This document shows, piece by piece, positions 5,371-62,123 of a stretch of 64,000 bases of DNA. The position numbers and the translations under genes are program-made. Below the pieces are notes generated by a model. That model saw only the letters and a program-made list of their open reading frames with translations, searched no databases and was not told the origin of the DNA. How positions within the stretch are numbered: position 1 is the stretch's first letter; each line of letters starts with the position of its first letter. Origin of the DNA: a candidate division FCPU426 bacterium (lineage in GTDB: Bacteria > Oederibacteriota > JAAXVQ01 > JAUVAV01); contig JAUVAV010000013.1 in assembly GCA_030591525.1 (NCBI GenBank), positions 1-64,000 of the forward strand. Reading direction: 5' to 3'.

Positions 5371-5564
5371 AAGGAACTTGAGCATTTAGTCGGTTTTAAT
5401 ATAAATAATTCCTCTCCCTTGAGGGGAGAGGTTAGGTGAGGGTGCGATTTTAAAGACTTTTATCACCCTCCCCTTCATCCCCTCCCCTGGCCAAAATCAG
5501 CCAGGACAGGCCGCAAAAAGGGAGGGGAATACTTGAATTCTGGACTAATTGTTCAAGCTCCTAG
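5371..5564. mobile_element. MITE-like element (a) with GAGCAATTAGT-type inverted ends
   Basis: The left end AAGGAACTTGAGCATTTAGT and the right end (reverse complement TAGGAGCTTGAACAATTAGT) are imperfect inverted repeats matching in most of the outer 23-25 positions. The interior holds a C/G-rich palindromic repeat (CTCTCCCTTGAGGGGAGAG and a matching CCCTCCCC region further on). Same ends as the elements at 48012 and 61342. It fills most of the gap 5314-5580; no gene is inside. Confidence 0.6.
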
Positions 5565-46961: not shown

Positions 46962-47972
46962 ATGGTCGAAAATGAAAAAGTGATATTAAGCGGTATGCGT
47001 CCTACCGGACGTTTGCATTTGGGCCATTTTGAGGGGGCCTTAAAAAACTACTTGCAGTTGCAGGCCGAAGGGGTTCTCTGCTATTTCATGATAGCGGATT
47101 TTCACGCCCTTAGTTCAGAGTATAAAACTCCCGAGGTCGTAAAGGAGAATACTCGTGAACTGCTGCTGGATTGGCTGGCTGTCGGTATTTCCGAAGAACA
47201 TGCCGTGATTTTTGTCCAGTCGGATGTGCTCGAACACTTCGAGCTTTTTACCGTGCTGAGTATGATAACGCCTCTGGCATGGGCGGAACGCTGTCCCACC
47301 TACAAGGAGCAGCAGCAGGAGCTGCCGGATCGCGATCTGGCAACTTATGGTTTTTTGGGCTATCCCATACTGCAAGCTGCGGATATTCTTTTATACCGGG
47401 CCACGCACGTTCCGGTGGGCCAGGACCAACTCCCGCATCTGGAGATGACCCGGGAGATTGCGAGGCGTTTTAACCATTTCTATGGGCCGGTTCTATCTGA
47501 GCCCCAATCTTTGCTGACCGCGAGCCCGAAAGTTCCCGGGATCGATGGGCGTAAGATGAGCAAGAGTTATGGCAATACGATCATGCTCTCGGATCCGGAT
47601 CAAGCAATCGAGCGCAAAATCATGCAAATGTATACTGATCCCCAAAAAATGCGCGCGAGTACGCCGGGGAATCCGGATAATTGCGTGGTTCTGGCTTTAT
47701 ATAGAATGTATGCTCCGGAGGAAATTTCGGGAATCGAATCCGAGTGCCGGGCCGGGGGGCGGGGATGCGTGGATTGCAAGCGCGGACTGATACCGGTCTT
47801 GCATAAAGTTATCCAGCCGATTAGAAACGAGCGCGAGCATTGGGCAGAGAGACCGGAAGAGCTCGAAGAGATTTTAAAGTCCGGTGCGATAATTGCCCGG
47901 GAGCGGGCTCGGGGGACTATGCAGATGGTCCGTAAGGCCATGCAATGGCGGAACGAGATCAATAGTAAATAA
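46962..47972 (+). CDS. trpS: Tryptophanyl-tRNA synthetase
   Basis: 336 residues, AGGAG upstream. Class I signatures: HLGH in GRLHLGHFEGALKNY and KMSKS in GRKMSKSYGN. Length and motif order are normal. Charges tRNA-Trp. A Cys-rich region near the C-terminus (ECRAGGRGCVDCKRG) is present as in many bacterial TrpRS. Confidence 0.97.
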   Translation: MVENEKVILSGMRPTGRLHLGHFEGALKNYLQLQAEGVLCYFMIADFHALSSEYKTPEVVKENTRELLLDWLAVGISEEHAVIFVQSDVLEHFELFTVLSMITPLAWAERCPTYKEQQQELPDRDLATYGFLGYPILQAADILLYRATHVPVGQDQLPHLEMTREIARRFNHFYGPVLSEPQSLLTASPKVPGIDGRKMSKSYGNTIMLSDPDQAIERKIMQMYTDPQKMRASTPGNPDNCVVLALYRMYAPEEISGIESECRAGGRGCVDCKRGLIPVLHKVIQPIRNEREHWAERPEELEEILKSGAIIARERARGTMQMVRKAMQWRNEINSK

Positions 47973-48011
47973 GACCAAAGAAATGATGGCTTGAAAAATA
48001 AACGAATTTCC

Positions 48012-48172
48012 AGCTGGGAGACTGAGCAATTAGTCGGTTTTTTAGGTTATCATTCCCGAATGCTCTTATCGGGAATCCAGAGGCTTTGATTTTAAAGGAA
48101 TTAAAAGTCACTGGATTCCGGCTAAAAGCATGCCGGAATGACAACACGTACTAATTGCTCAAACTCCCAGCT
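48012..48172. mobile_element. MITE-like element (b) with GAGCAATTAGT inverted ends
   Basis: The left end AGCTGGGAGACTGAGCAATT and the reverse complement of the right end AGCTGGGAGTTTGAGCAATT match at 21 of the outer 23 positions. The interior is a GTCATTCC-type palindrome (TCATTCCCGA... and ...GCCGGAATGACA). It lies 40 bp after trpS and ends 25 bp before scpA. No open reading frame. Confidence 0.68.
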
Positions 48173-48197
48173 ATATCGATGAAATGGAAGGCGGATC

Positions 48198-48977
48198 ATG
48201 ACCTATCGGCTTAACCTGGATGTCTTCGAAGGGCCTTTTGACCTGCTGCTGTATCTTATCAAGAAAAATGAGATAGATGTTTATGATATACCGATTTCCC
48301 AACTGCTGGAGGAATTTTTGGCCTACGTGGAATTAATGAAGGAACTTGATCTGGATATTGCCGGTGATTTTATTCTGATGGCCTCCAACCTTATGCATAT
48401 CAAATCGCGTATGCTCCTGCCCCAAGAGTCCCTGGACCTGGAAGCAGGCGAGGAAGCAGATCCCCGGGCTGACCTGGTACGCCGTTTGCTGGAATACAAG
48501 CGGTATAAAGAGGTGGCCGGTGTGCTGGATAAGCGGGAACTTCACGCGCGCCAATTATTTTGGCGGCAGGCGGTTAAGCCGGATGAGAAAGAACTACGGG
48601 AAAACCAGGAAGAACCAGTGGCCCTGCAATTCCAGGAAGTGAATCTTTTCGATCTGCTATCGGCTTTTAAACGGGTGCTGGCCTATGCCAAACCGGAAAC
48701 CTTCAGGGAAATCAATCCGGAGGAGATAAAAACCAGCCAGAAAATCAACGAGATTCTGGATGCTTTGGAAGAGACGTCTGCTCTGGATTTCACAGAGTTG
48801 CTGATGAGCCAGGGGAGCAGGCTGGCCATGGTAACGATTTTCCTGGCCATTCTGGAATTGGTCAGGCTGGGGGCGGCTGTCATTCGGCAGGATAAGTCTT
48901 TTGATCGTATTATGATAGAGCGTCTGGATGAATTCACAGCCCCGGCACGCGAGGCCGCAATAGGAACGGAGGAGTAA
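48198..48977 (+). CDS. scpA: Segregation and condensation protein A
   Basis: 259 residues. The ScpA kleisin start LDVFEGPFDLLLYLIKKNEIDVYDIPI is clear, with a C-terminal winged-helix part (SRLAMVTIFLAILELVRLG). Bridges the Smc heads with ScpB in chromosome condensation. ScpB starts 2 bp after its stop. Confidence 0.95.
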   Translation: MTYRLNLDVFEGPFDLLLYLIKKNEIDVYDIPISQLLEEFLAYVELMKELDLDIAGDFILMASNLMHIKSRMLLPQESLDLEAGEEADPRADLVRRLLEYKRYKEVAGVLDKRELHARQLFWRQAVKPDEKELRENQEEPVALQFQEVNLFDLLSAFKRVLAYAKPETFREINPEEIKTSQKINEILDALEETSALDFTELLMSQGSRLAMVTIFLAILELVRLGAAVIRQDKSFDRIMIERLDEFTAPAREAAIGTEE

Positions 48978-48979
48978 CC

Positions 48980-49783
48980 ATGGAATCAAAAGAGATCAAG
49001 GCGGTTATTGAGTGCCTATTATTTGTTTCGGACAAGCCGCTTTCACTGGGCAGTCTGCATAATCTTTTCGAACGTGTGGACCGGAGGACTTTACTGGCCT
49101 GCCTGGATGAATTAAAGGCTGAGTATGATTTGCAGGGAAGGGCCTTTCAGTTAGTGGAGATCGCGGAAGGATACCAGCTTTCTACCCGGGTCCAGTACGC
49201 GCCCTGGATCAGAAAGCTTTATAAAAACCGTGCCAACAGCAAGCTTTCCCGGGCCGCTCTGGAAACTCTGGCCATTATCGCCTACCGTCAGCCGGTTACC
49301 AAGGCGGAGATCGAGGACATCCGGGGTGTTTCCGCCGATGGGGTAGTGAATTCACTGGCCGAGCGAAAGCTGGTTCGTATAGTAGGACGCAAGGAAGTCG
49401 TGGGGCGTCCCCTGCTTTATGGAACCACCAAGGAATTTTTGCATTTTTTCGGGCTGAAGGATTTAACCGATATGCCGGAACTGAAAGAACTTCAGGAAAT
49501 ATTAGAGGCGGATGAAGCAGGAGAGTCCTGGGATCTAAATCCGCACGGTGAATTAATCGCCAAGGCTCGGAGCAGTGAGGAGAGCGAGGCTGAAGCCAAT
49601 GAGTCTTCTCTGGAGAGTCAGGAGCCATTGGCAGCTGCGGCCGCGAACCAAGAGAATGAACAAGCCGGCAGCGAGGACGCCGAACCAGTGGCCGCGAACC
49701 AAGAGGATGAACAAGCCGGCAGCGAGGAAGCCGAGCCAGTGGCCGCGAACCAAGAGGGTGAAAAAGATGGCGGCCAGGCATGA
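48980..49783 (+). CDS. scpB: Segregation and condensation protein B with acidic repeat tail
   Basis: 267 residues. Residues 1-175 are a normal ScpB with two winged-helix domains (KAVIECLLFVSDKPL; AALETLAIIAYRQPVTKAEIEDIRG; GRPLLYGTT). From about 190 the tail is acidic and low in complexity, with a 17-residue unit (ANQE.EQAGSE.AEPVA) repeated twice and a part of a third copy. Such a tail is not needed for the ScpB fold. The stop overlaps the start of the pseudouridine synthase gene by 4 bp (ATGA). Confidence 0.93.
   Translation: MESKEIKAVIECLLFVSDKPLSLGSLHNLFERVDRRTLLACLDELKAEYDLQGRAFQLVEIAEGYQLSTRVQYAPWIRKLYKNRANSKLSRAALETLAIIAYRQPVTKAEIEDIRGVSADGVVNSLAERKLVRIVGRKEVVGRPLLYGTTKEFLHFFGLKDLTDMPELKELQEILEADEAGESWDLNPHGELIAKARSSEESEAEANESSLESQEPLAAAAANQENEQAGSEDAEPVAANQEDEQAGSEEAEPVAANQEGEKDGGQA
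49643..49762 (+). repeat. In-frame 51-bp tandem repeat in scpB
   Basis: Units begin at 49643, 49694 and 49745 (third is partial). Unit start GCGAACCAAGAG. The two full units differ at only a few positions. Confidence 0.85.
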
Positions 49784-50565
49784 GTGATTGCCGGGAACCG
49801 AATGTCCGGTTGAATCGTTTTCTGGCGGACGCCGGGATTTGTTCCCGGCGGGACGCCGACCAGATGATTTTTGGCAAACGGGTAACGGTTAATGGAAAGA
49901 TAATAGAATCTCCGGCTTTCCGGATAGATTCGGAGCACGATGCCGTTAAAGTCGGGGGGAGCCGGGTAAAGGCTCAGCCTCTGGTTTATGTGCTGATGCA
50001 TAAGCCCGAGGGCGTGGTTTCTACGGTGGAGGATCCCCAGCAACGCACTACGGTCATGGATTTGCTCCGGGGAGTTCGGGCCCGGGTTTATCCGGTGGGA
50101 CGTTTGGATTACAATACTTCCGGCGCGATTATGCTGACCAATGACGGCGAACTGGCGCAGCGGCTGGCGCATCCCCGCTATGAATTTCCCAAGACTTATC
50201 ATGCCAAGGTCAATGATATCCCGACACGTGAGGATCTGGTAAAAATGGCCAAGGGGGTCAGAATCCCGGATAAGCTCCAACGCTATACCAGGACCCGGCC
50301 GGCAAAAGTGCGCCTGGTCACCCGGATGAAAAAATATGCCGTGGTGGAAATTGTCCTGCAGGAGGGCCGGCAGCACCAGGTCCGTAAGATGTGTGCCGCC
50401 ATCCATCATCCGGTTGCGGCCTTGACGCGGGTAAAGTTCGGGTTCTTATCCGTGGCCGGATTGCCGGTGGGCCGCTGGCGTTATTTAACCTCGAAGGAGA
50501 TAGAAAAGTTAAAGAAAGGGGCGCCGATCCATGAGTCTCGACAAAGCCCGTCAAGCCATAGATAA
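49780..50565 (+). CDS. rluB: 23S rRNA pseudouridine synthase, RluB/RsuA family
   Basis: 261 residues. An N-terminal S4 RNA-binding domain (VRLNRFLADAGICSRRDADQMI) is followed by the RsuA/RluB catalytic domain with the catalytic Asp in GRLDYNTSGAIMLTNDG. Its C-terminal motifs (VEIVLQEGRQHQVRKMC) are normal. It is usually next to scpAB. The gene overlaps pheA by 35 bp in another frame. Confidence 0.92.
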   Translation: MSDCREPNVRLNRFLADAGICSRRDADQMIFGKRVTVNGKIIESPAFRIDSEHDAVKVGGSRVKAQPLVYVLMHKPEGVVSTVEDPQQRTTVMDLLRGVRARVYPVGRLDYNTSGAIMLTNDGELAQRLAHPRYEFPKTYHAKVNDIPTREDLVKMAKGVRIPDKLQRYTRTRPAKVRLVTRMKKYAVVEIVLQEGRQHQVRKMCAAIHHPVAALTRVKFGFLSVAGLPVGRWRYLTSKEIEKLKKGAPIHESRQSPSSHR

Positions 50566-51604
50566 AATTGACGAAAAAATCGTAGAGCTCCTCAACCGCC
50601 GGGCTTGCCGGGTGCTTGAGATATCCCGGCAGAAAGAGCGGGCGCAAATACCGGTTTTTGCTCCGGACCGCGAGAGCAAATTACTGGCCCGCCTTAAAAC
50701 CTTGCGCCGCGAAGGCCCCTTTCCCATGGCAGCCCTGCGCGCGATATACCGGGAGATTATATCCGCCTCGATCTCGCTGCAGGCTGGTTTGAAAATTGTC
50801 TACTTCGGTCCGGAAGGGACTTTTACGCACCAGGCGGCCAAGGAACAATTTGGAGCTTCAGCGCAGTATTTGCCGGTAAGCAGTATTGCGGATGTTTTTC
50901 GCGAGGTTGAACGCGGGCGGGCGGATTACGGCGTGGTGCCGGTAGAGAACTCCACCGAGGGTGTGGTTAACCATACGCTGGATATGTTCGCCGACAGCGC
51001 GCTTAACATTTGTTCCGAAATATCTTTGCAGGTGGAGGAAAATCTGCTTTCACGTGAAAACGGGATAGCGGACATAAAAAAAGTTTATTCCCATCCTCAG
51101 CCTCTGGCGCAGTGCCGCTTATGGCTGGACGGCAACCTGCCTGAAGTTGAAAAGGTGGAAGTCTCTTCCACGGCCAAAGCGGCCCAGATGGCTTTCCGGA
51201 ATCCGGGAACCGCGGCGATTGCTTCGCGCCTGGCCGCCCAGATTCATGGTTTGCAAATTCTGGCCCAAGGCATAGAGGATACCAGCGATAATGTAACCAG
51301 GTTTCTGGTGCTGGGACGGCATATGTCCGGGCCTACCGGGCGGGATAAAACCTCCATCATGCTGGCTATTCGGGACAGTGTAGGCGCGTTGCATAAAATC
51401 CTTAAACCTTTTTCCCAGCAGCGTATCAACCTGACCAGTATTGAATCCCGGCCTTCCCGGGAGCGGGCCTGGAATTATCTTTTTTTCATTGACTGCCATG
51501 GTCATGTCACTGAACCGAAGATTAAACGCATGCTGGCCGCGCTCAAGCCGTTAACCAGCAATTTGAAAGTGCTGGGTTCTTATCCCCGGAGCGAGGAAAA
51601 ATGA
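50531..51604 (+). CDS. pheA: Bifunctional chorismate mutase / prephenate dehydratase
   Basis: 357 residues. The chorismate mutase AroQ domain (1-85; IDKIDEKIVELLNRRA), prephenate dehydratase (about 90-265; YFGPEGTFTHQAA, VVPVENSTEGVV, TRFLVLG) and a C-terminal ACT domain (275-350; GALHKILKPFSQQRINLTSIESRPS) are all there. It makes phenylpyruvate from chorismate; the ACT domain with ESRPS usually binds Phe for feedback control. It starts inside rluB and overlaps hisC by 4 bp. Confidence 0.95.
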   Translation: MSLDKARQAIDKIDEKIVELLNRRACRVLEISRQKERAQIPVFAPDRESKLLARLKTLRREGPFPMAALRAIYREIISASISLQAGLKIVYFGPEGTFTHQAAKEQFGASAQYLPVSSIADVFREVERGRADYGVVPVENSTEGVVNHTLDMFADSALNICSEISLQVEENLLSRENGIADIKKVYSHPQPLAQCRLWLDGNLPEVEKVEVSSTAKAAQMAFRNPGTAAIASRLAAQIHGLQILAQGIEDTSDNVTRFLVLGRHMSGPTGRDKTSIMLAIRDSVGALHKILKPFSQQRINLTSIESRPSRERAWNYLFFIDCHGHVTEPKIKRMLAALKPLTSNLKVLGSYPRSEEK

Positions 51605-52701
51605 GGCTGGGACAGCCAAGGGTCCGGGCGTGTGTCCGAAGCATCCAGCCTTACCAGCCCGGTAAGCCGGTTGAGGAAGTGGAGCGGGAACTGGGAATCC
51701 GGGGAGCCGTAAAACTGGCCAGCAATGAAAATCCCCTGGGACCGGCTCCCCTGGTCATTCAGGCCCTGAAGCAGGCAGCCGGCTTAGCCGGAGTTTATCC
51801 GGACGCGGGATGCTACTATCTCCGGCAGGCCCTGGGGCAACACCTTAAACTCAGGGCGGAAGAAATTATTATCGGGAACGGATCCGATGAGCTGCTGGTG
51901 CTTTTAGGTTTGGCTTTACTCGAGCCGGGAGACGAGGTATTAACCTCGCAGATGAGCTTTGTAGTATATTATTCCGTGCCCCGGCTGATGAACGCCAAAT
52001 TAATAGCAGTGCCGATGCGGAATTATCAAATCGATCTGGAGGCCATGGCCCGGGCCCTTACGCGCAAAACCAGGATTATTTTTATCGCCAATCCCAATAA
52101 TCCCACGGGCACGGTGGTAGCGCCCGGCAGCTTACGGAAATTTATTGAAAAAGTTCCGGGAAAATGTTTAGTGGTTTTGGACGAAGCATACTATGAATAT
52201 GCGGATTCCCGGATTATGGGTCAAACCCCGGATCTGGTCCGCGAACGGAAAAACGTGGTGGTGCTTAGGACTTTTTCCAAAGCCTATGGCCTGGCCGGTC
52301 TGCGTATCGGATACGGCGTGGCGCCTAAAATCATAGTTGACGCCATTGAACGGGTGAGGGAGCCTTTTAATGTAAATCATTTGGCCCAGATAGGGGCCCG
52401 GGCCGCTTTAAAAGCACGCGGGCATATGCGCCAGAGCGTGGAACTGGCGCGTGCCGAGCGGTCACGCATGGGAAAGGCCTTGGCCGGAATGGGATTCAAG
52501 ACCGTGCCCTCCCAGACTAATTTCATATTTGCGCAAGCGCCCATCCGGGACAGCCAAAAATTCAGCGTCGACTTAATGCGGGAAGGAATTATAATCCGGC
52601 CTTTTGCGGGCTCCCACGTGCGGATTACCATGGGAACCCGGGTTCAAAATGATAAGATGATCAGGGCGGTTAAGAGAGTGTTGGGGAATTATATCAACTA
52701 A
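51601..52701 (+). CDS. hisC: Aminotransferase HisC/aromatic type
   Basis: 366 residues. Fold type I PLP enzyme of the histidinol-phosphate group: SNENPLGP near the start, NPNNPTG, and the PLP lysine in [15 protein letters not shown]. In this aromatic cluster it likely transaminates phenylpyruvate and hydroxyphenylpyruvate as well as, or instead of, imidazole acetol phosphate. The substrate cannot be decided by reading. Confidence 0.9.
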
Positions 52702-52724
52702 TTTGCTTCAGGAGGACCGTGAAT

Positions 52725-53738
52725 ATGGTTATTGTAATGCGCAAAGATGCTACTAAAGAACAGATCAATCATCTCTTGGAAAAGCTAAAAGAGAAGGGAT
52801 TGAATACGCATGTTTCCCAGGGGACCGAACGGACTATCGTAGGCGCTATCGGGGACGAGCGGATATTGCAGAGCGTACCTCTGGAGGCTTTTCCCGGAGT
52901 GGAACAGTCCATGCCGATTCTTCAGCCGTTTAAGCTGGTCTCCCGGGATTTTAAGACGGAATCTACTGTGGTGGAGGTTGGCGGAGTCAAGATCGGCAAC
53001 GGCCATTTTGGATTAATTGCCGGGCCTTGTTCCGTAGAAAATTGGGAAACCCTGATTCAGACCGCCCGCCTGGTAAAGGCCTCGGGTGCCAACCTGCTGC
53101 GCGGGGGGGCGTTTAAGCCCCGTACCAGTCCCTATGCTTTTCAGGGTCTGGGCGAGGAAGGGCTCAAGCTTTTAGTCCGGGCGCGCGAAGAAACCGGATT
53201 ACCCATAGTAACCGAGGTTATGAACGTAAGCCAGGTTAACCTGGTCGCCAAGTACGCGGATCTGCTTCAGATCGGCGCCCGTAATATGCAGAATTTTGAT
53301 CTGCTCAAAGCTGTTGGGGATACGAAAAAACCCGTGCTTTTAAAACGCGGACTTTCCGCTACGATTAAGGAATGGCTCATGTCGGCTGAATATATCTGTT
53401 CCCGGGGAAATTACAACGTGATTCTCTGCGAGCGCGGTATTCGGACCTTTGAAACCTATACCCGCAATACTTTGGACCTGGCAGCCGTGCCGTCAGTAAA
53501 GGAACTTTCTCATCTGCCCGTAGTAGTTGATCCTTCCCACGCTACGGGCCGCCGCAGCCTGGTTGCTATCATGTCCCGGGCTGCGCTGGCCAGCGGAGCG
53601 GATGGACTCTCAATTGAGGTTCATCCCCGGCCCGAGGAAGCCTTGTCCGACGGAGACCAGTCTCTGCTGCCCGAAGAATTCACCCGTCTGGTTGAGATGC
53701 TCAAGCCCCTGGCCCCGATCTGCGGACAGTCCTGGTGA
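52725..53738 (+). CDS. aroF: DAHP synthase, type I-beta with N-terminal regulatory domain
   Basis: 337 residues from ATG 52725; the RBS GGAGGA is 8 nt upstream, which excludes the GTG at 52719. The N-terminal 70 residues form a ferredoxin/ACT-like regulatory domain as in the Thermotoga enzyme, which binds aromatic amino acids for feedback. The catalytic barrel has [33 protein letters not shown] and the metal ligands in [12 protein letters not shown]. First step of the shikimate pathway. Confidence 0.94.
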
Positions 53739-53748
53739 GGATGCCGGG

Positions 53749-54651
53749 GTGAAGAAATTGCTGTTTTCCAGGGTCGTGATTGCGGGCGTGGGTTTAATGG
53801 GAGGCTCGCTGGGTTTGGCCATAAAAAGACAGGGATTGGCCCGGGAGGTAGTGGGACTGGTACGGCGTCGTTCGACTATTCGTGAGGCCAAGGCCCGAGG
53901 CTGCATAGACGCGGGCACACTGTCCATTCCCCAAGCGGTCCGGGACGCTGAAATGGTAGTATTGGCCGGGCCGGTTAGCAGTACTTTGCCGCTGCTCAAA
54001 GCCATGCTGCCCCATCTGCCTGCCGGATGCCTGGTTACGGACCTGGGCAGTACCAAGGTCAAGCTGCTGGGACATATAGCCGGCTTGTTGCCCCCCAAAC
54101 CAGGCTTTGATTTTATCAGTTCCCACCCCATGGCCGGCTCGGAAAAAGCCGGGGTCCAGGCCGCGCGCCGGGACTTGTACCAGGGATCGCTTTGTATGCT
54201 TATCAAGACGCCCGGGGTGAATCCGGAAACATTAGCGTGTCTTAAAGCCTTCTGGAATTCAGTAGGATGCCGGGAAATAAGGATCGTAACTCCTCAAGAG
54301 CATGATCGCTGGACAGCGGCGGTTTCGCATTTGCCGCATGCCGCAGCCGTAAGCCTGGTAAATTTAATTGCGGATTTAGCGGTCCGCGATACCGGCCTCA
54401 TGGAAATTGCAGCTACGGGGTTTTTAGATACTACCCGTATCGCCGGGGGATTGCCTGCCATGTGGCAGGATATTTTACTGAATAATCGTGAAGAAATTTG
54501 CACCGTGCTGGCCCGTTTTAGACAAAAATTGAGCCGCTTGGAAGGATTTTTAAGAAACCGGGAGGAAAAATCCCTGCGACAGGAATTGGAACGGGCTTAT
54601 GTTTTTCGCCAGGGCATGGAAGGGAAGAGGCATGGACGTAAAAAACGTTAA
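53749..54651 (+). CDS. tyrA: Prephenate dehydrogenase
   Basis: 300 residues from GTG 53749, with GTGAGGA about 8 nt upstream; the ORF-track start at 53527 runs through aroF. NAD(P)-binding VIAGVGLMGGSLGLA, then the prephenate-site pattern SSHPMAGSEKAGV and the C-terminal helical domain (WTAAVSHLPHAAAVSL). Makes hydroxyphenylpyruvate. No ACT domain. Its end overlaps aroA by 20 bp. Confidence 0.93.
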   Translation: MKKLLFSRVVIAGVGLMGGSLGLAIKRQGLAREVVGLVRRRSTIREAKARGCIDAGTLSIPQAVRDAEMVVLAGPVSSTLPLLKAMLPHLPAGCLVTDLGSTKVKLLGHIAGLLPPKPGFDFISSHPMAGSEKAGVQAARRDLYQGSLCMLIKTPGVNPETLACLKAFWNSVGCREIRIVTPQEHDRWTAAVSHLPHAAAVSLVNLIADLAVRDTGLMEIAATGFLDTTRIAGGLPAMWQDILLNNREEICTVLARFRQKLSRLEGFLRNREEKSLRQELERAYVFRQGMEGKRHGRKKR

Positions 54652-55948
54652 ACCCGCCAACCGGATCAAACACAAGATACTTATACCGGGAGATAAATCC
54701 ATTTCCCACCGGGCCGCGATCCTGGGTATGCTGTCTCAGGGAGAGACGCGTATTACTAACTTTTTAAAGGCTGAGGATTGCTTGAACACTTTGGCGGCCT
54801 GCCAACAATTAGGCGCCGGAGTGGATTGGCAGAAGGAAGAACTAATTATTCAAGGCTGCGGTCGGGAGGGACTGAAACCGCCCGGGAGCGTGATTGATTG
54901 CGGGAATTCAGGAACCGGCGTACGCCTGCTCACCGGCGTGCTGGCCGGACAGCCGTTTGAGTCGATTATAACCGGTGATGAACAGATTCGGCGCCGTCCC
55001 ATGCAGCGTATTATAGATCCCTTGACCCGGATGGGCGCGCGGATTGAGAGCGAACCGGGCGGATTCTGTCCTCTGCGTATCCGCGGGGGAAATCTTAAGG
55101 CCATTGATTATATTTCACCCGTGGCCAGTGCGCAGGTTAAGTCCTGTATAATCCTGGCCGGTCTGTTCGCGCAGGGTAAAACCAGTGTGTCCTCGCCGGG
55201 TAGTTCCCGGGATCATACCGAGCGTCTGATGAGGTTTTTCGATGTGGCAGTGGCCAGTGGAATGACCCCCGGTTCCGGGCCGGGGCAACCGCAGAATGAA
55301 AAAGTAATAGTAGACGGAAGGCCGAAGTTGAACGGCCGGAAAATAAACATACCATCTGATATCTCTTCAGCCGCGTTTTTTATGACTGCGGCCGCCCTTC
55401 TGCCGGGAACAGAACTTAAACTTAAAAATATCGGTGTGAATCCCGGCCGTTCCGGAATTATCCGGGTGCTGGAAGCTATGGGAGCGGAAATAGTAATGGA
55501 AAACCAGAAGCAGGAGGCCGGGGAACCGGTGGCTGATTTAATAATTAAAGGCAAAGGATTTTTGAAGAGCGCCCGGATTTTTGGTCCCATGATTCCCGGC
55601 CTGATAGATGAAATTCCTGTCCTGGCAGTAGCCGCGGCGGCGGCTGAAGGTGAAACCGTAATTTCGGATGCGGCTGAATTACGCGTGAAAGAAACTGACC
55701 GGATTAGTGTGCTGGCAACGGAATTAAGCAGCCTGGGAGTAGCGGTTGAGGAGCGTCCGGACGGTATGCTCATTCAAGGCGGCCATATTCGCGGAGGAGA
55801 GGTTGATTCTCATGGTGATCATCGTCTGGCCATGAGTCTGGCCATAGCCGGCCTGGTTTCCGAGCAGGGCGTAACCATTAAGCATACACAGTGTGTGAAT
55901 ACCTCTTTTCCCGGTTTCTGGGAGATATTGGAGCAGGCTGCGCGATGA
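54632..55948 (+). CDS. aroA: 3-phosphoshikimate 1-carboxyvinyltransferase (EPSP synthase)
   Basis: 438 residues from ATG 54632, set by GGGAAGAGG. Family motifs are complete: PGDKSISHRAAI, DCGNSGTGVRLLTG, RDHTERLM, DEIPVLAVAAA and ELRVKETDRI. Sixth step of the shikimate pathway. Overlaps tyrA at its start and cmk (ATGA) at its end. Confidence 0.96.
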   Translation: MDVKNVKPANRIKHKILIPGDKSISHRAAILGMLSQGETRITNFLKAEDCLNTLAACQQLGAGVDWQKEELIIQGCGREGLKPPGSVIDCGNSGTGVRLLTGVLAGQPFESIITGDEQIRRRPMQRIIDPLTRMGARIESEPGGFCPLRIRGGNLKAIDYISPVASAQVKSCIILAGLFAQGKTSVSSPGSSRDHTERLMRFFDVAVASGMTPGSGPGQPQNEKVIVDGRPKLNGRKINIPSDISSAAFFMTAAALLPGTELKLKNIGVNPGRSGIIRVLEAMGAEIVMENQKQEAGEPVADLIIKGKGFLKSARIFGPMIPGLIDEIPVLAVAAAAAEGETVISDAAELRVKETDRISVLATELSSLGVAVEERPDGMLIQGGHIRGGEVDSHGDHRLAMSLAIAGLVSEQGVTIKHTQCVNTSFPGFWEILEQAAR

Positions 55949-56640
55949 GTTTAAATTCAAAAAAACGCCTCATTATTGCGATTGACGGGCCGGCCGGAGC
56001 CGGCAAGAGTTCGGTTGCGAAATCGCTGGCCCAGCGGCTTAATTATTTATATATTGATACCGGCGCCATGTATCGCGCGGTTACTTTTAAAGCTATGCAA
56101 GCGGGGATAGACCTTTCTGACGGCCGGGCGGTAGAAGATATAGCCCGGACGGTGAAGCTGGAATTTGTGGCTGGACAAGCCGGCGTAATTTATATGGATG
56201 GCGCGGACGTGTCAGCAGCCATTCGTACACCGGAAGTATCCCGGAACGTCTCGGCTTACGTAGCCAGTTATCCGGGTGTGCGCCAAAAACTGGTTGAGCT
56301 TCAGCAGGCCATGGGCGCCCCCGGCGGGGTAGTAATGGAAGGCCGGGATATTACCACCGTGGTTTTTCCCCGGGCAGAGGTCAAGGTATTTCTGGATGCC
56401 GGGCAGGAAGAACGGGCTTGCCGCCGTTTTGAAGAACTCAGGGGCCAGGGCCGCGAACAATCCTATAATGAACTTTTGGCTGATCTGAAACGCCGGGACC
56501 AGGAGGACCGTAACCGGCCCGGAGGAGCCTTGCAATGCGTGCCTGATGCCCTGGTATTGGATTCCACTCGTATGAGTATTGACCAGGTAGTTGATGCCAT
56601 ACTACAGGTGGTTCACGAAAAAGCGGCCCTCCCGGAATGA
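55945..56640 (+). CDS. cmk: Cytidylate kinase
   Basis: 231 residues from ATG 55945, the ATGA overlap with aroA; the longer ORF is a shadow. P-loop AIDGPAGAGKSSVAK, substrate motif YIDTGAMYRAVT, MEGRDITTVVFPRA and RDQEDRNRPGGALQ, all typical of bacterial CMP kinase. Phosphorylates CMP/dCMP. aroA-cmk-plsC-ispH-rpsA order is common in many bacteria. Confidence 0.95.
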   Translation: MSLNSKKRLIIAIDGPAGAGKSSVAKSLAQRLNYLYIDTGAMYRAVTFKAMQAGIDLSDGRAVEDIARTVKLEFVAGQAGVIYMDGADVSAAIRTPEVSRNVSAYVASYPGVRQKLVELQQAMGAPGGVVMEGRDITTVVFPRAEVKVFLDAGQEERACRRFEELRGQGREQSYNELLADLKRRDQEDRNRPGGALQCVPDALVLDSTRMSIDQVVDAILQVVHEKAALPE

Positions 56641-57272
56641 GGTGGCATTACCGGATTATATTAGCTTTGGCCGAATTGGTTCTACGTCTTTTTTTCCGGC
56701 TGAAGGTCAAGGACTGGAAAAAGATTCCCCAACATGGCGGACTCCTTCTGGCCAGCAATCACGCCAGCTACCTGGATCCGCCCGCAATAGCGGTTGGGGT
56801 CTGTCACCGCGAAATTCACTTTATGGCCAGATCAACGCTTTTCAAGCGCGGCGGTTTTGGCCGGCTGCTCAGCAGCGTAAATACCCATCCGATTGTACGG
56901 GGAAAGGGTCCGGATCAGGATTGGGAGCTTTTTATAAAAGTCATGAAAAGCGGCGGGGCCCTGCTGGTTTTTCCCGAGGGTACACGCACGAAAAACGGCG
57001 AGCTGCAGCGCGGCAAAACCGGATTCGCCAAGCTGGCGTATATGAGCCAAATGCCGGTCTATCCCGTCTATATTCACGGCAGTTATGCGGCCTGGCCTAA
57101 AGGCGGCCCGATACGCTGCCGGCCGATAAGTGTTGTTTTTGGGGATCAGGTTGGGCTGGGCGATCTCTACGCCCAGCCGGAGGAAAAACCTGCCTTGCGG
57201 GAAATATCCCAGCGGGTTATGAATGCCATTGCCGGTTTAAAAAAGGAAGTCGAGGAGGAGGCAGCCGGTTGA
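56637..57272 (+). CDS. plsC: 1-acylglycerol-3-phosphate acyltransferase
   Basis: 211 residues, ATGA overlap with cmk. PlsC motifs: HX4D in SNHASYLDPP, then FPEGTRTKNG and the hydrophobic PVYPVYIHGS. An N-terminal membrane-binding helix (RIILALAELVLRLFFRL) is present. Adds the second acyl chain in phospholipid synthesis at the inner membrane. Confidence 0.93.
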   Translation: MRWHYRIILALAELVLRLFFRLKVKDWKKIPQHGGLLLASNHASYLDPPAIAVGVCHREIHFMARSTLFKRGGFGRLLSSVNTHPIVRGKGPDQDWELFIKVMKSGGALLVFPEGTRTKNGELQRGKTGFAKLAYMSQMPVYPVYIHGSYAAWPKGGPIRCRPISVVFGDQVGLGDLYAQPEEKPALREISQRVMNAIAGLKKEVEEEAAG

Positions 57273-58114
57273 AAATCTCGCTGACCAAAAACGCCGGACA
57301 TTGTTTTGGCGTGAAGGCTGCCATCCAAAAAGCTTTTGAAACCGTGCGCCGGGAGCGGCAGCCGGTTTTTACGCTGGGGCCGATTATCCACAATCCCCAA
57401 GTGGTGCGTAGCCTGGAAAAAGAAGGCGTGAAAGCGGTTAAAAACTTGAGCGAGATTCCCAAGGGTGTTATAATCATTCGTTCTCACGGAGTTTCACCGC
57501 AGGTTATTGCAACGGCCCAAGCCCGGGGTTTAAAGGTTGTGGATGCTACTTGTCCTTTTGTGCAGCGCGCCCATCAACTGGCGCGGCAACTGGTGGAGAG
57601 CGGGTATGACCTGATAATACTGGGTGATTTTGCTCATCCTGAAGTGGAAGGAATTGTCGGGACAGTGCAGGGCCGGGCAACCGTGGTCTCAGGAGCCAGC
57701 GAGATACTGGATCTGCCGGAAAAAAAGAGTTACGGCTTGATTGCGCAAACCACCCAGACCCTGGAAAATCTTCAGCAGGTGGCCAGCGCGCTGCTGACGC
57801 GAACCCGGACACTCAAGGTTTTAAATACTATTTGCAATGCCACTACGGATCTTCAGAAGCAGACTCGTTTGCTCGCACAAGCAGTTGATCTGATGTTGGT
57901 GGTGGGCGGGCGCAACAGCGCTAATACCACACGCTTGGCAGTGATTTGCCAAGAGGCCGGGGTGCCGGTTTATCATATTGAAACCGCGGATGAAATTCAA
58001 CCGGGCTGGTTGCAGGGAGTTAAACATGCGGGAGTTACCGCAGGAACTTCCACCCCGGAAGAAGTTATTAAAGAAATCATGGAGCGTTTAAAAAATATGA
58101 CGGATGCCGGGTAA
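57269..58114 (+). CDS. ispH: 4-hydroxy-3-methylbut-2-enyl diphosphate reductase
   Basis: 281 residues from TTG 57269 overlapping the plsC stop (TTGA). The three iron-sulfur cysteines are visible (NAGHCFGVKAA, DATCPFVQRAH, LNTICNATTD), as are IIRSHGV, the active-site region GDFAHPEVEGIVG and GTSTPEEVI. Last step of the MEP isoprenoid pathway, making IPP and DMAPP. Here it is a separate gene upstream of the S1 protein, to which it is fused in some Firmicutes. Confidence 0.96.
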   Translation: MKISLTKNAGHCFGVKAAIQKAFETVRRERQPVFTLGPIIHNPQVVRSLEKEGVKAVKNLSEIPKGVIIIRSHGVSPQVIATAQARGLKVVDATCPFVQRAHQLARQLVESGYDLIILGDFAHPEVEGIVGTVQGRATVVSGASEILDLPEKKSYGLIAQTTQTLENLQQVASALLTRTRTLKVLNTICNATTDLQKQTRLLAQAVDLMLVVGGRNSANTTRLAVICQEAGVPVYHIETADEIQPGWLQGVKHAGVTAGTSTPEEVIKEIMERLKNMTDAG

Positions 58115-58194
58115 TATATCAGGCGGTCGTTATAGCGGTATATTTCGCGATAATGTTGTATGTATTTGCCAAGGTGTTTGCCCGTGCATTTTAC

Positions 58195-58277
58195 GTAGGG
58201 GCGGACTTCCATGTCCGCCCATTAGAAATATCGCATATCCTTGAACCGCGGGTCGGCATGGAAGCCGACCCCTACGG
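58195..58277. repeat. Two GTAGGGGC-family palindromes before rpsA
   Basis: GTAGGGGCGGAC..GTCCGCCC (58195-58220) and GGGTCGGC..GCCGACCCCTAC (about 58250-58275), lying head to head. The gap 58115-58369 has no other feature I can name. Confidence 0.65.
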
Positions 58278-58369
58278 TTGGATGATTTGCGATAAGGAAC
58301 TCCAGGTTTATGCCCGGAGGTTTCATTACTCCGCACTTTACGGTGGAGAAGATATATTGGAGGCTGTAG

Positions 58370-60364
58370 ATGATGGTAGACGAAGAGATTAAACCGCGGC
58401 CGGACGAGCCGGAGGAGCCCTTGGCAGCGCAGGAAATAGGGGGCGGCACACCCTTGAATGACGATATGAAAATACCGAGCTATCCGGTTGACGAAAATTA
58501 CGAGACTAAGGAAGGGATTGGTCCGGGTACGCCTCTGAATGAACTGGAGACCACCTCTCCTGAAACTACGGCTAAGCCCGCCGAGGTTGCTAATAAACTT
58601 CCGGAAGAGCCGGAAAAGGAAGTTCCCAGCCGGCCGGAGGAACCGGTTGCGGAACCGCGGGAAGAAGAAGGGGATTTCGCCGAGGAATTGGAGCAGGCGC
58701 TGGAGAATGAACCCGAGCTCGGAGAAATAGTCAAGGGACGGGTCCTGCGTATTGATGAAGAAGGAGTTGTTGTAGATATAGGTTCAAAGTCCGAAGGCAT
58801 TATTCCACGGGAAGAATTTCTTGATGCCCGGGGAGAGTTTTCCGCCCAAGTAGGCGATGAAGTTGATGTTCTGCTGGAACGCCGGGAGAACCGGGACGGG
58901 TTGGTGGTCTTGTCCAAGCGGAAGGTAGATAAGCAAAGAAGCTGGAATGCGGCAAATATGGCTTTAGCAAACGGGACCAGCCTGGAAGGAATAGCACTCT
59001 CCAAATGTAAAGGCGGTTTTGTTGTAGATCTCGGAGGAGTGCAGGCCTTTCTGCCCGGATCTCATATGGATGTCCGGCCGGTTAAAGATCCGGATACCTG
59101 CTTAAACCAACGCCTGCAATTTAAAGTAATTAAGCTGAACCGGGAGCGCGGCAATATCGTGGTTTCCCGCCGGAATCATCTTATAGATGAACTCAACCAG
59201 CAGCGCTCCCAGGTTATTTCCGAACTTAAGCCCGGACGTCTGGTCAAGGGAGTAGTGAAAAATCTTACCAACTATGGAGCTTTTATTGACATAGGCGGAG
59301 TGGACGGACTGTTGCATATCAATGACATGGCATGGTCCAAGGTTACCAATCCCCGCCAGGTAGTAAAAACCGGCAAGGAGATAGAGGTCCTGGTGCTCTC
59401 GATTGATGAAGCCACGGGCAAAATAGCATTGGGACTCAAGCAGAAAAGTGAAGATCCCTGGGTCAATATTGCGGCCAAGTATCCGGTGGAAAGCCTGATC
59501 GAGGCCGAGGTGGTTTCTTTGACTGATTTTGGGGCCTTTTTGCGGATTGAGAACGAGGTAGAAGGTTTGCTCCCGATTTCGGAGATTTCCTGGACCAAAC
59601 GCCTGCGCCATCCCAAGGAAATTTTAAAGGTCGGGGACAGCCTGCGGGTGAAGATATTAGCGTTGGACCCCCAGGCCAAGAAAATCACCCTGGGGTTGCG
59701 CCAGACCGAGCCGGAGCCTTTTGCCTTGTTTATGGAGAATTTTCGAAACGGCCAGACGCTGGACGGCGAGGTAAAATCAATTACCAAATACGGTGCCTTT
59801 GTTGAACTGGTTGAAGGGGTAACCGGTTTATTGCATATATCCGATATGTCTTGGGATGGGTCGCTTAAAAACCCGGGAGAGCTGGTCAAAGTGGGTGAGC
59901 GGATAACGGTTAAGATATTGGAAATCCAGGCCGATAGAAAAAAAATATCCCTGGGATTGAAACAGCTCCAAGAGGATCCTTGGATCGTTGCCGCTAAAAA
60001 GTATTCCGTGGGAAGGGTGGTTAAGGCTAAGGTTGTCCGGAATACCAAATTCGGAGTATTTGTTCAGATGGAACCCGGAGTGGAAGGGTTGATTCATATT
60101 ACCCAATTGGAAAAAGGGAAAGAACGCTCCGAACCCAAACCTCTGCCCGAGGGAGAATACGTGCAGGCCAAAATAATCAAGGTAAATTCGAAAGAGCATA
60201 AAATAGCTCTTTCCATCCGGGAGTTTATGCAGGATCAAGAGCAGGTGGAAATGAAGAAATATTTGGAGCCGGCTAATAAACCCGGGATTTCACTGGGCGA
60301 AATTTCCGGTCTGAGCCGGGAAGAACTGCTTAAACGTTTCCCGGAGAAACCGGAAAATGAATGA
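58370..60364 (+). CDS. rpsA: Ribosomal protein S1-like, six S1 domains, long acidic N-terminus
   Basis: 664 residues. RBS TTGGAGG about 8 nt before ATG 58370. The first 115 residues are acidic and Pro-rich, with two G-T-P-L-N-(D/E) motifs, and are not part of the S1 fold. Six S1/OB domains follow at about 116-186, 205-270, 288-357, 375-443, 461-530 and 547-615; domains 3-5 carry the NYGAFIDI/DFGAFLRI/KYGAFVEL and (G)LLHI(N/S)DMSW motifs. It would bring mRNA to the 30S ribosome. Longer than E. coli S1 (557 residues) because of the N-terminal extension. Confidence 0.92.
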   Translation: MMVDEEIKPRPDEPEEPLAAQEIGGGTPLNDDMKIPSYPVDENYETKEGIGPGTPLNELETTSPETTAKPAEVANKLPEEPEKEVPSRPEEPVAEPREEEGDFAEELEQALENEPELGEIVKGRVLRIDEEGVVVDIGSKSEGIIPREEFLDARGEFSAQVGDEVDVLLERRENRDGLVVLSKRKVDKQRSWNAANMALANGTSLEGIALSKCKGGFVVDLGGVQAFLPGSHMDVRPVKDPDTCLNQRLQFKVIKLNRERGNIVVSRRNHLIDELNQQRSQVISELKPGRLVKGVVKNLTNYGAFIDIGGVDGLLHINDMAWSKVTNPRQVVKTGKEIEVLVLSIDEATGKIALGLKQKSEDPWVNIAAKYPVESLIEAEVVSLTDFGAFLRIENEVEGLLPISEISWTKRLRHPKEILKVGDSLRVKILALDPQAKKITLGLRQTEPEPFALFMENFRNGQTLDGEVKSITKYGAFVELVEGVTGLLHISDMSWDGSLKNPGELVKVGERITVKILEIQADRKKISLGLKQLQEDPWIVAAKKYSVGRVVKAKVVRNTKFGVFVQMEPGVEGLIHITQLEKGKERSEPKPLPEGEYVQAKIIKVNSKEHKIALSIREFMQDQEQVEMKKYLEPANKPGISLGEISGLSREELLKRFPEKPENE

Positions 60365-60467
60365 ACGTGTGTAATCGGGAAGTAGTCACAGGCGTAATTG
60401 GTTAGTATCTGTCGCGAAAGGTTGTTTTCGGAAAGGGTTGTCATAACCGAATGATTTTTATATTTCG

Positions 60468-60496
60468 GTAGGGGCAGGTTCTAAACCCGCCCTTAC
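60468..60496. repeat. GTAGGGGC-family palindrome, with a degenerate GTCATTCC-type copy next to it
   Basis: GTAGGGGCAGGTT..AACCCGCCCTTAC. About 25 bp further on (60520-60597) lies a decayed GTCATTCC-type element (CTGGATTCCCGCTC, GAGCGGAAT, GCATGCGGAAATGACG). Together they occupy most of the 317-bp gap 60365-60681; no gene seen. Confidence 0.6.
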
Positions 60497-60681
60497 AAAT
60501 AATTCTTTGAAAATCAAAGCCGCTGGATTCCCGCTCAAGTATGGAGATGAGCGGAATAGATTATTGACATGCATCTTAAAGGCATGCGGAAATGACGTAA
60601 CTCCCGTAATCAGAAAATATCTTTCCGCAGCAGGAAGTACTTAAAAGAGCAGGAAGACAACATAAGAGGAGGGAAAAAGGC

Positions 60682-61341
60682 ATGAGAACCGCTCAGGAGA
60701 TTTTTAGCCGCTATGGAAAAACGTATGCTGCCGGCGATGTAATATTCAACGAAGGCGATATTGGAGAGGAGATGTTTATTATCCAGTCCGGCCAGGTAAA
60801 AATCGTAAAAAAAACCAATAAGGAAGAGAAAACCCTGGTAATCCTTTCCGAGGGCGATTTTTTCGGAGAAATGGCGGTGATTGACCGCGAACCGCGTTCC
60901 GCCGGCGCTGTCGCCATTACCGAGACCAGATGCATAGTATTAAACAACGCGGTTTTTGAGTCCACCATGCAGTCGAATATACATATTGTAAAAAGAATAC
61001 TGCGCAACATGAGCTCCCGGTTGCGCGAAGCCAATAAACAGATTGCCAACCTGCTTTTAAAGGATCATAATCGCAGAGTAGCCAATACTCTGGTCCTGAT
61101 TGCCCAGAAGCACGGCACCCAGACCGATAAGGGGATTGTAATGGATTTTCCCCTTACGGTCGTGGAATTGGCCAGTTCCTCCGGCTTGTCCGCTGAGATT
61201 GATAAAGTTAAGGACATTCTGAGCAAATTGGAAAAAGCCAAAGTTATCAGATTCGAGGGAGAACGAATAATTATTAGTTCTCTGGAAAATTTGGGTAAAT
61301 TTATTCAATACCTTGAGATGAAGGAAGAATTCGGGGTATAG
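60682..61341 (+). CDS. Crp/Fnr-family transcription regulator
   Basis: 219 residues, GGAGGG 8-9 nt before the ATG. Cyclic-nucleotide-binding beta-roll (about 10-120; FNEGDIGEEMFIIQSGQVKIV, LSEGDFFGEMAVIDREPRSAGAVA) and the long dimer helix, then a short C-terminal winged-helix region (DFPLTVVELASSSGLSAEIDKVKDILSKLEKAKVI). No Fe-S cysteines of the Fnr type, so an effector such as cAMP or none is likely. The recognition helix is poorly conserved. Target genes are unknown. A hairpin at 61346-61375 follows the stop. Confidence 0.88.
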   Translation: MRTAQEIFSRYGKTYAAGDVIFNEGDIGEEMFIIQSGQVKIVKKTNKEEKTLVILSEGDFFGEMAVIDREPRSAGAVAITETRCIVLNNAVFESTMQSNIHIVKRILRNMSSRLREANKQIANLLLKDHNRRVANTLVLIAQKHGTQTDKGIVMDFPLTVVELASSSGLSAEIDKVKDILSKLEKAKVIRFEGERIIISSLENLGKFIQYLEMKEEFGV

Positions 61342-61480
61342 CCTAGGAGCCTGAGCAATTAGTTGCTCAGGCTCCAGAGCATTTGAGATTCGATAGTAGA
61401 AATTAGATAAAATATCGCAAATGCGGTCTACTTTCTACTATCCACTCTCAAAAAACCGACTAATTGCTCAAACTCCTAGG
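61342..61480. mobile_element. MITE-like element (c) with GAGCAATTAGT inverted ends
   Basis: The left end CCTAGGAGCCTGAGCAATTA and the reverse complement of the right end CCTAGGAGTTTGAGCAATTA match at 20 of 22 outer positions. The left end is part of a perfect 13-bp hairpin (GGAGCCTGAGCAA-TTAG-TTGCTCAGGCTCC, 61346-61375). The interior has GCATTTGA...CAAATGCGGTC, as at 34970-35010. It begins directly at the stop codon of the Crp gene. Confidence 0.68.
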
Positions 61481-61532
61481 TGCTCGGGTCAAACGCATGG
61501 CTAATATATTACAAGAAAAGGAGGGATGAAGA

Positions 61533-62123
61533 ATGAGGAAATTGTCTGCGGTTTTGGTGCTGGTTCTGGCGGCCGGATTAGGCGGTTGCGGGGGAGAAGG
61601 GCCTGATGAGCGGCGGGGAAATATGTTTTTTAAAAACGGAAAATATTATGAAGCCTTCCAGGCTTACGAGAAAGCCGTGGCCAAGGATGCTAAACTCCTG
61701 GAATCCCGGGAATTCGCAGAAAAATTCAAGAATGCTTATTATTACTACGGCGGGGCGCTGGAGATGAGCGGCAGCCTGGAATCAGCGGTTAAATATTATA
61801 TTTTAGGCTTTGACCTGGTTCCCACGGACGTGGGGATTTGTGATAAGCTGGCAAAATATTTCTGGGGAGATGAGGAGTTTGAAAAAGGCATAAAATATTT
61901 TAAACGCCTCTTGGAATTGGACGCGGAAAGCCCGGATACTGATAAAAAATGGGCTGTCATGGGTGAGGATTATTATGCCCTGGGATATTCCTTGTTTAAA
62001 ACCAAGAAGTATTTGGAAGCGATAGAAGCGTTGGAGCAATCACTTAAAGTCGCTCCCCGGGGAGCCTTTGCGAAGAAAGCGAAGAGTGCGCTGGCCGCTG
62101 CCAAGGCCGCGATGAAAAAGTAA
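61533..62123 (+). CDS. TPR lipoprotein
   Basis: 196 residues, GGAGG upstream. The signal peptide ends in a lipobox (AAGLGGC, Cys about residue 19-20). Three to four TPR-like units: GNMFFKNGKYYEAFQAYEKAV, YYYGGALEMSGSLESAVKYY, YYALGYSLFKTKKYLEAIEALE. The C-terminus is Ala/Lys-rich. An envelope adaptor is likely (compare BamD-like or PilF-like TPR lipoproteins), but no specific family is evident. Confidence 0.75.
   Translation: MRKLSAVLVLVLAAGLGGCGGEGPDERRGNMFFKNGKYYEAFQAYEKAVAKDAKLLESREFAEKFKNAYYYYGGALEMSGSLESAVKYYILGFDLVPTDVGICDKLAKYFWGDEEFEKGIKYFKRLLELDAESPDTDKKWAVMGEDYYALGYSLFKTKKYLEAIEALEQSLKVAPRGAFAKKAKSALAAAKAAMKK

Follow-up and report, generated by a model that had tools for sequence, protein, structure and literature searches.

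Modular intergenic repeats with IS1182-like inverted ends, very probably MITEs, in the genome of an FCPU426 bacterium

Short mobile repeats without genes of their own, built from modules or from paired ends, have been described in several bacteria. MITEPye1 of Paracoccus yeei is an IS1182-family MITE with 1–3 copies per chromosome and 4-bp repeats (PMC11578231). IS1272 is autonomous, makes no target duplication, and removes a hairpin from its target (PMC5678879). BOX elements of Streptococcus are intergenic composite repeats whose modules follow a set order and vary in number between strains (PMC3049150), and REPINs are intergenic inverted pairs of short repeats around a less conserved spacer, present in hundreds of copies (PMC3116915). 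IS1182-derived MITEs, modular short repeats, and inverted pairs with free spacers are thus each known already. In the open-access literature we found no description of interiors common to unrelated bacterial MITE end families, and nothing on chimeric, mosaic, modular or nested MITEs in bacteria.

The repeats reported here, from the genome of an FCPU426 bacterium, share traits with all four systems. Like MITEPye1 they are short, lack an ORF, lie between genes, form long stem-loops, and carry IS1182-like inverted ends of ~18 bp; they differ from it in number (about 135 elements), in their TA flanks, in their module grammar, and in having interiors that are common to other end families. With IS1272 they share the transposase family, which is that of complete insertion sequences with GGAGYYTGAGCAWTTAGTC ends, and possibly hairpin-related exchange at insertion sites, but the empty sites found here fit a short duplication and the elements are non-autonomous. 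They resemble BOX as composite intergenic repeats of ordered modules in variable number, although sequence and ends are different and each module border is a copy of a mobile end. They also resemble REPINs, being intergenic inverted pairs of a short repeat with a less conserved spacer, whereas the matching transposase is an IS1182-family DDE enzyme rather than the Y1 (RAYT) tyrosine transposase of REPINs. We consider it very probable that the elements are MITEs derived from a DDE insertion sequence of the IS1182 family that had GGAGYYTGAGCAWTTAGTC ends, and that their modules are exchanged in place.

The host genome comprises 2.70 Mb in 91 contigs and is 96% complete. GGAGYYTGAGCAWTTAGTC is the end consensus of the family. 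The pattern YTGAGCANTTAGT occurs 212 times in this genome and 0 times in the reversed control, and exact TGAGCAATTAGT has 133 occurrences compared with 0 when the pattern is reversed, so the end repeats are not a product of chance. Clusters of ends were parsed from 100 stretches round listed end copies and from the window (the whole 64-kb stretch of DNA that was analyzed), a choice of stretches that skews the sample towards elements with GGAGYYTGAGCAWTTAGTC ends. Among the copies listed, about 135 clusters were recovered, and 92 of the 135 are complete inverted pairs, meaning that they start with an inward-facing end and finish with its inverted partner. These complete elements are multi-copy (n = 92), span 30–273 bp, and contain no transposase gene. 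A sequence-only reading of the window had described a modular, MITE-like family without a transposase, and the numbers of ends and pairs bear this out; it had named two findings that would count against it, a genome with no further copies and unpaired ends as common as pairs, and the same numbers speak against both. The end pattern had no match in viral contigs.

Three intergenic elements with imperfect inverted ends had been pointed out in the window. They are real, and their exact bounds, set from the outermost GGAG to CTCC, are given with measured arm complementarities in Table 1. Element 1 has a single mismatch in the core of each end. The ends of element 2 (48012-48041 and 48143-48172) are 83% complementary over 30 nt, and those of element 3 (61342-61363 and 61459-61480) are 91% complementary over 22 nt. 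Element 3 holds three copies of the end because one of its sides is a complete 30-bp hairpin, GGAGCCTGAGCAATTAGTTGCTCAGGCTCC. In the congeneric genome G001, element 2 is missing at the orthologous site.

Table 1. Features of the three window elements (strand "." where none applies).
Feature	Position	Strand	Remarks
Element 1, complete	5373..5561	+	L - module D (of CTCTCCC type; the long form, 189 bp) - R
Element 1, left end (L)	5373..5390	+	GGAACTTGAGCATTTAGT
Element 1, right end (R)	5544..5561	-	TA next, at 5562-5563
Element 2, complete	48017..48167	+	L - module C (GTCATTCC palindrome) - R
Element 2, module C	48046..48145	+	47-nt arms, 79% complementary
TA left of element 3 (CTAG context)	61344..61345	.	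second TA at 61477-61478
Element 3, complete, type A (131 bp)	61346..61476	-	minus-strand reading L - A - L-loop-R
Element 3, terminal hairpin (L-loop-R palindrome)	61346..61375	-	13-nt arms, 100% complementary
Element 3, module A	61382..61452	-	26-nt arms, 88% complementary
Element 3, outer L end (minus-strand reading)	61459..61476	-	

Two further stretches of the window also differ from G001. Another repeat, at 60398-60665 and thus 0.7 kb ahead of element 3, combines CTGTYGCGGAAAG-type ends with a GTCAT..AATGAC interior and has no counterpart at the orthologous G001 site; at ~58120-58293, ~170 bp that include a GGGGCGGACTTCCATGTCCGCCC hairpin are absent from G001.

The elements have a marked preference for particular sites. 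TA borders complete elements on the left in 66 of 92 cases and on the right in 74 of 92, compared to a background of 6.5% in the flanks, and CTAG does so in 56 and 60 of 92, respectively. Gene context and stop-codon distances were scored with a simple ORF caller, by which no complete element (0 of 92) lies inside an ORF of at least 100 aa. All three window elements had been placed within 60 bp after a stop codon; this holds for each of them, and the position proved general: the 73 elements beside a gene end lie a median of 12 bp from the stop codon, and 16 of the 73 start inside a stop codon, so that the target TA and the first G of the element together make TAG.

Sites that are empty in one genome indicate what happens to the target. 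The comparison was made with G001, a member of the same genus (the pair is ~86–90% identical). At L133:4428, the empty site in L238 of G001, CCATAAGGGAG, corresponds to CCA-TA-[element]-TA-GGGGAG, a clean fit to TA duplication. At L049:4832, the empty site CCCATAGGGG (L310 of G001) corresponds to CCCATA-[element]-TAGGGG; a TA duplication needs two changes in the right end of the element and an ATAG duplication one. TA duplication fits less well at a third, weaker site (L083 vs. L234). Across all elements, flanks vary as NTA|G on the left and as C|TAN on the right, which favors TA over a 4-bp, CTAG-like duplication. Relatives in the IS1182 family have been reported with 4-bp repeats (PMC3281130, PMC11578231) or with none (IS1272, PMC5678879). 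A TA target duplication fits the aligned sites best, short of proof, and a 4-bp duplication is possible; L049:4832 alone would read better as ATAG.

The interiors, at first taken to be different each time, in fact fall into recurring classes, comprising five modules (A–E) and an interior-less palindrome. Among the 92 complete elements, module A occupies 35 (exactly 131 bp long in 27 cases), module B 24 (mostly 149–153 bp), module D 16 (six of 164 bp), and module C 2; five are palindromes without an interior (30 or 41 bp), nine contain two modules or halves of two, and one is unclassified. Module E was found in incomplete copies and in relatives. Sizes inside the subfamilies are near-constant, at 131 bp for A, about 150 bp for B, and 164 bp for D. 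The modules follow a fixed grammar, (L-A or L-B)n and then L-(loop, C, D or E)-R. After A or B the next unit is another L and not R directly; in a few exceptional copies, a short repeated stretch marks where the terminal hairpin has collapsed. Halves of A and B also combine into half-hybrids, joined at a common core, AGACCGCA (L061, L100, L138, L065). In a related genome (G003; L214, L215, L217), a hairpin of ~40 bp (CCCGACCGG..TTCGGTCG) is set into modules A and B, always at their central point GACCG/CATTTG, giving a hairpin within a hairpin.

Several of these modules also occur inside other ends. We scored the module just inside each end at sampled loci from four genomes of the bacterial family, for GGAGYYTGAGCAWTTAGTC and for the end types T2 (GGAGYCTGTCGGACTT), T3 (GTGTCTCMNAA), T5 (GAGRCTGTGTCRYAAT), T6 (GTAACAGTTCAGTGAA), and T7 (CTGTTGCGGAAAG); since end types are short patterns with one to three mismatches allowed, the resulting pairings include some chance adjacency. 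Module C lies inside GGAGYYTGAGCAWTTAGTC ends and four others (T3, T6, T7, and, in one chimera, T2), module D inside GGAGYYTGAGCAWTTAGTC ends and two others (T3, T7), and module E inside GGAGYYTGAGCAWTTAGTC ends and three others (T3, T5, T7). Two more modules were found inside T2, T3 and, rarely, GGAGYYTGAGCAWTTAGTC ends (F) and inside T3, T5, and T7 (H), and A and B are practically confined to GGAGYYTGAGCAWTTAGTC ends. The locus L200 has one end of the GGAGYYTGAGCAWTTAGTC family and one T2 end. The idea that one type of end has captured other repeats was thus partly right: C, D, E, F, and H do sit within other end types, and this sharing is wider than had been thought. A more far-reaching proposal, which we put forward only tentatively, is that several unrelated transposon end families within one bacterial family draw on one pool of hairpin modules, the "elements" being passing combinations and not lineages; modules would then enter hairpin loops, or replace hairpins, by structure-guided transposition.

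Where the ends come from is suggested by a scan of a genome collection of 85,462 species with the end pattern AGGAGYYTGAGCAWTTAGTC. The scan returned 43 stretches, from relatives labelled Firestonebacteria and FCPU426 and from Elusimicrobia, Chloroflexi, and Goldiibacteriota MAGs; by our estimate chance would account for about four of the 43, apparently including L284 and L298. Complete insertion sequences are present in two of the stretches. One, in a Chloroflexi MAG (L288), is 1682 bp long, with one mismatch between its 18-bp ends and TA on both sides, and its 547-aa ORF scores 358.8 bits against the NCBIfam IS1182 equivalog NF033551 (cut-off 270). The other, in an Elusimicrobia MAG (L287), is 1437 bp long; its ends are identical, and its ORF reaches 272.9 bits (IS1182 cut-off 270). 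The first 18–19 bp of these two insertion sequences equal the element consensus at three of the four ends, and the fourth differs by a single mismatch. L265 resembles an L287-type element with an internal deletion.

No intact transposase with GGAGYYTGAGCAWTTAGTC ends was found in the host genome or its bacterial family, only decayed fragments, and those with recognizable ends have another end type. In the host genome itself, the sole trace of such a transposase is one decayed fragment within another end family; a search of the host genome with Pfam DDE_Tnp_1_6 likewise found no partner transposase. Ends that match complete IS1182 elements, in a host lacking an intact transposase, point to non-autonomous (MITE-like) derivatives. 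The missing transposase lowers the case for current activity and not that for MITEs, as old MITEs do not require one. Other IS1182-type sequences were seen as well. Decayed fragments of such transposases (L166 / L306 on contig C77 of the host genome, and L196 in G007) lie inside a second end family, GGAGYCTGTCGGA, and suggest an IS1182 element as the source of that family too; a lone perfect palindrome in the host genome (L156, AGGAGCCTGTCGGACTTAAGTCCGACAGGCTCCT) represents that second family without an interior. In G003 (L195, contig C222), a complete 484-aa IS1182-type ORF is bounded by CAGGCTGTGTCATAA ends, which resemble the ends of the small-repeat family T5 in these genomes.

Two insertions common to the host genome and G001 are one module apart: B then A in L047 vs. 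B in L227, and A then B in L088 vs. A in L220. Both pairs agree in their outer flanks and have their joints within the end sequence. Each is compared as a genome pair without an outgroup, so the order in which the two states are given implies neither gain nor loss. The right-hand hairpin type also changes between L088 and L220, and slippage between direct repeats alone is therefore insufficient. The sequence-only reading had offered, as its other option, that the ends serve as a docking site, and to this extent, with two orthologous insertions differing by one module and joined in end sequence, the option gains partial support. At L133:5912, one genome has D where the other has B, between the same flanks. 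G001 has other sequence at or near the spot of further elements, mostly another palindromic repeat (L102, L071, L043, and L110, corresponding to L290, L199, L258, and L236; L049:1495 and L049:8045, both in L310; and window element 3, in L240). These differing repeats may be independent insertions into short intergenic gaps.

In our preferred explanation, an IS1182-type transposase, now lost from the host genome or unsampled in it, would have recognized the GGAGYYTGAGCAWTTAGTC ends and carried complete units to TA sites, mostly CTAG, directly after genes. Transposition would have multiplied a small set of fixed subfamilies (131 bp for A, about 150 bp for B, and 164 bp for D), the interior being free to vary because only the ends are needed for movement. 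Interiors would be palindromic repeat modules, several of them also living inside unrelated end types. After insertion, modules would be gained, lost or exchanged in place with joints in the common end sequence, giving composites such as L-B-L-A-L-loop-R. Since the complete IS partners are in other phyla, it is from the ends that we infer past mobilization in trans by an IS1182-type transposase in this host. For the exchange step we infer recombination or template switching between end copies as first choice over stem-loop replacement; it would need only the common 18–19 bp.

Stem-loop-replacing transposition competes with this exchange step and not with the identity of the elements as MITEs. 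An IS1182-type transposase would attach the element at the feet of a hairpin in the target, and that hairpin would be lost; a composite would result whenever an incoming element took the place of a resident element's terminal hairpin, and differing repeats at one site would likewise reflect replacement. Such a reaction has been reported for IS1272, which is placed in the IS1182 family (PMC5678879). Both module differences described above look like a terminal hairpin swapped for a whole element, with no TA at the inner joint; different palindromic repeats occupy several orthologous sites; and the elements sit right behind genes, where hairpins are common. However, the empty sites fit TA duplication with no hairpin lost, and no element with unrelated ends follows any of 100 A or B right ends, although targeting by structure alone would permit this; together these results disfavor replacement as the main route. 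Recombination between 18–19-bp end copies would also yield identical joints, and we regard replacement as possible but rather unlikely. We think it less probable still that there were nested insertions only, in which C, D, and E entered separately by their own transposition, nothing was exchanged at the ends, and differing repeats at one site are chance hits of one short gap. The presence of C, D, E, and F in other end types is in keeping with this, as is the small number of target sites (CTAG in short intergenic regions). Against it, D copies, six of them 164 bp long, have size and joints in common and so multiplied as units, L047/L227 and L088/L220 are common insertions with altered module content, and the composites have no TA between modules and hence are not ordinary TA insertions.

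Two readings of a different kind fare worse than exchange between the ends of IS1182-type MITEs. A link to IS200/IS605-REP transposases had been raised earlier, and under it the repeats would resemble REPINs and owe their movement to a REP-associated tyrosine transposase (RAYT). REPINs share their general form (PMC3116915), namely intergenic paired inverted repeats with variable spacers, and the host genome has four PF01797 genes. Yet these four Y1 genes bear their own 23–28-bp inverted repeats of other sequence, no GGAGYYTGAGCAWTTAGTC end lies within about 1.4 kb of them, GGAGYYTGAGCAWTTAGTC is a flanking pair at 0 RAYT loci of relatives, and the ends match IS1182 elements instead; a RAYT/REP origin is largely refuted, and we give it almost no credence. 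Hardly more credible is a regulatory RNA or terminator family kept for its function, which the strong predicted hairpins and the placement directly after stop codons might suggest. There are 0 Rfam matches at gathering score in window positions 47900-61600, which hold elements 2 and 3, and hence none to a known RNA family there; terminator-like sites around element 3 are near chance (2 found vs. 1.3 expected). Moreover, neighboring genes occur in all orientations (33 ++, 29 --, 18 -+, 11 +-), A/B half-hybrids join halves that should not pair, and the same sites differ in element content between congeneric genomes. As a separate observation, RAYT-type genes of ~340 aa in the host genome (L031-L034) and in relatives (L178, L182, L183, L184, L187, L188) each lie between long near-perfect inverted repeats, several starting GGGGACG, and look like complete mobile units with small derivatives of their own.

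Through the elements described here, a large and modular family of repeats from uncultured bacteria is linked to a transposase family that is already known. In a congeneric pair that is ~86–90% identical, module gain, loss, and exchange can be followed at individual sites. Should stem-loop replacement, so far reported for IS1272, also operate here, it would offer a general route to mosaic intergenic repeats such as BOX and BIME that requires no homology between interiors.
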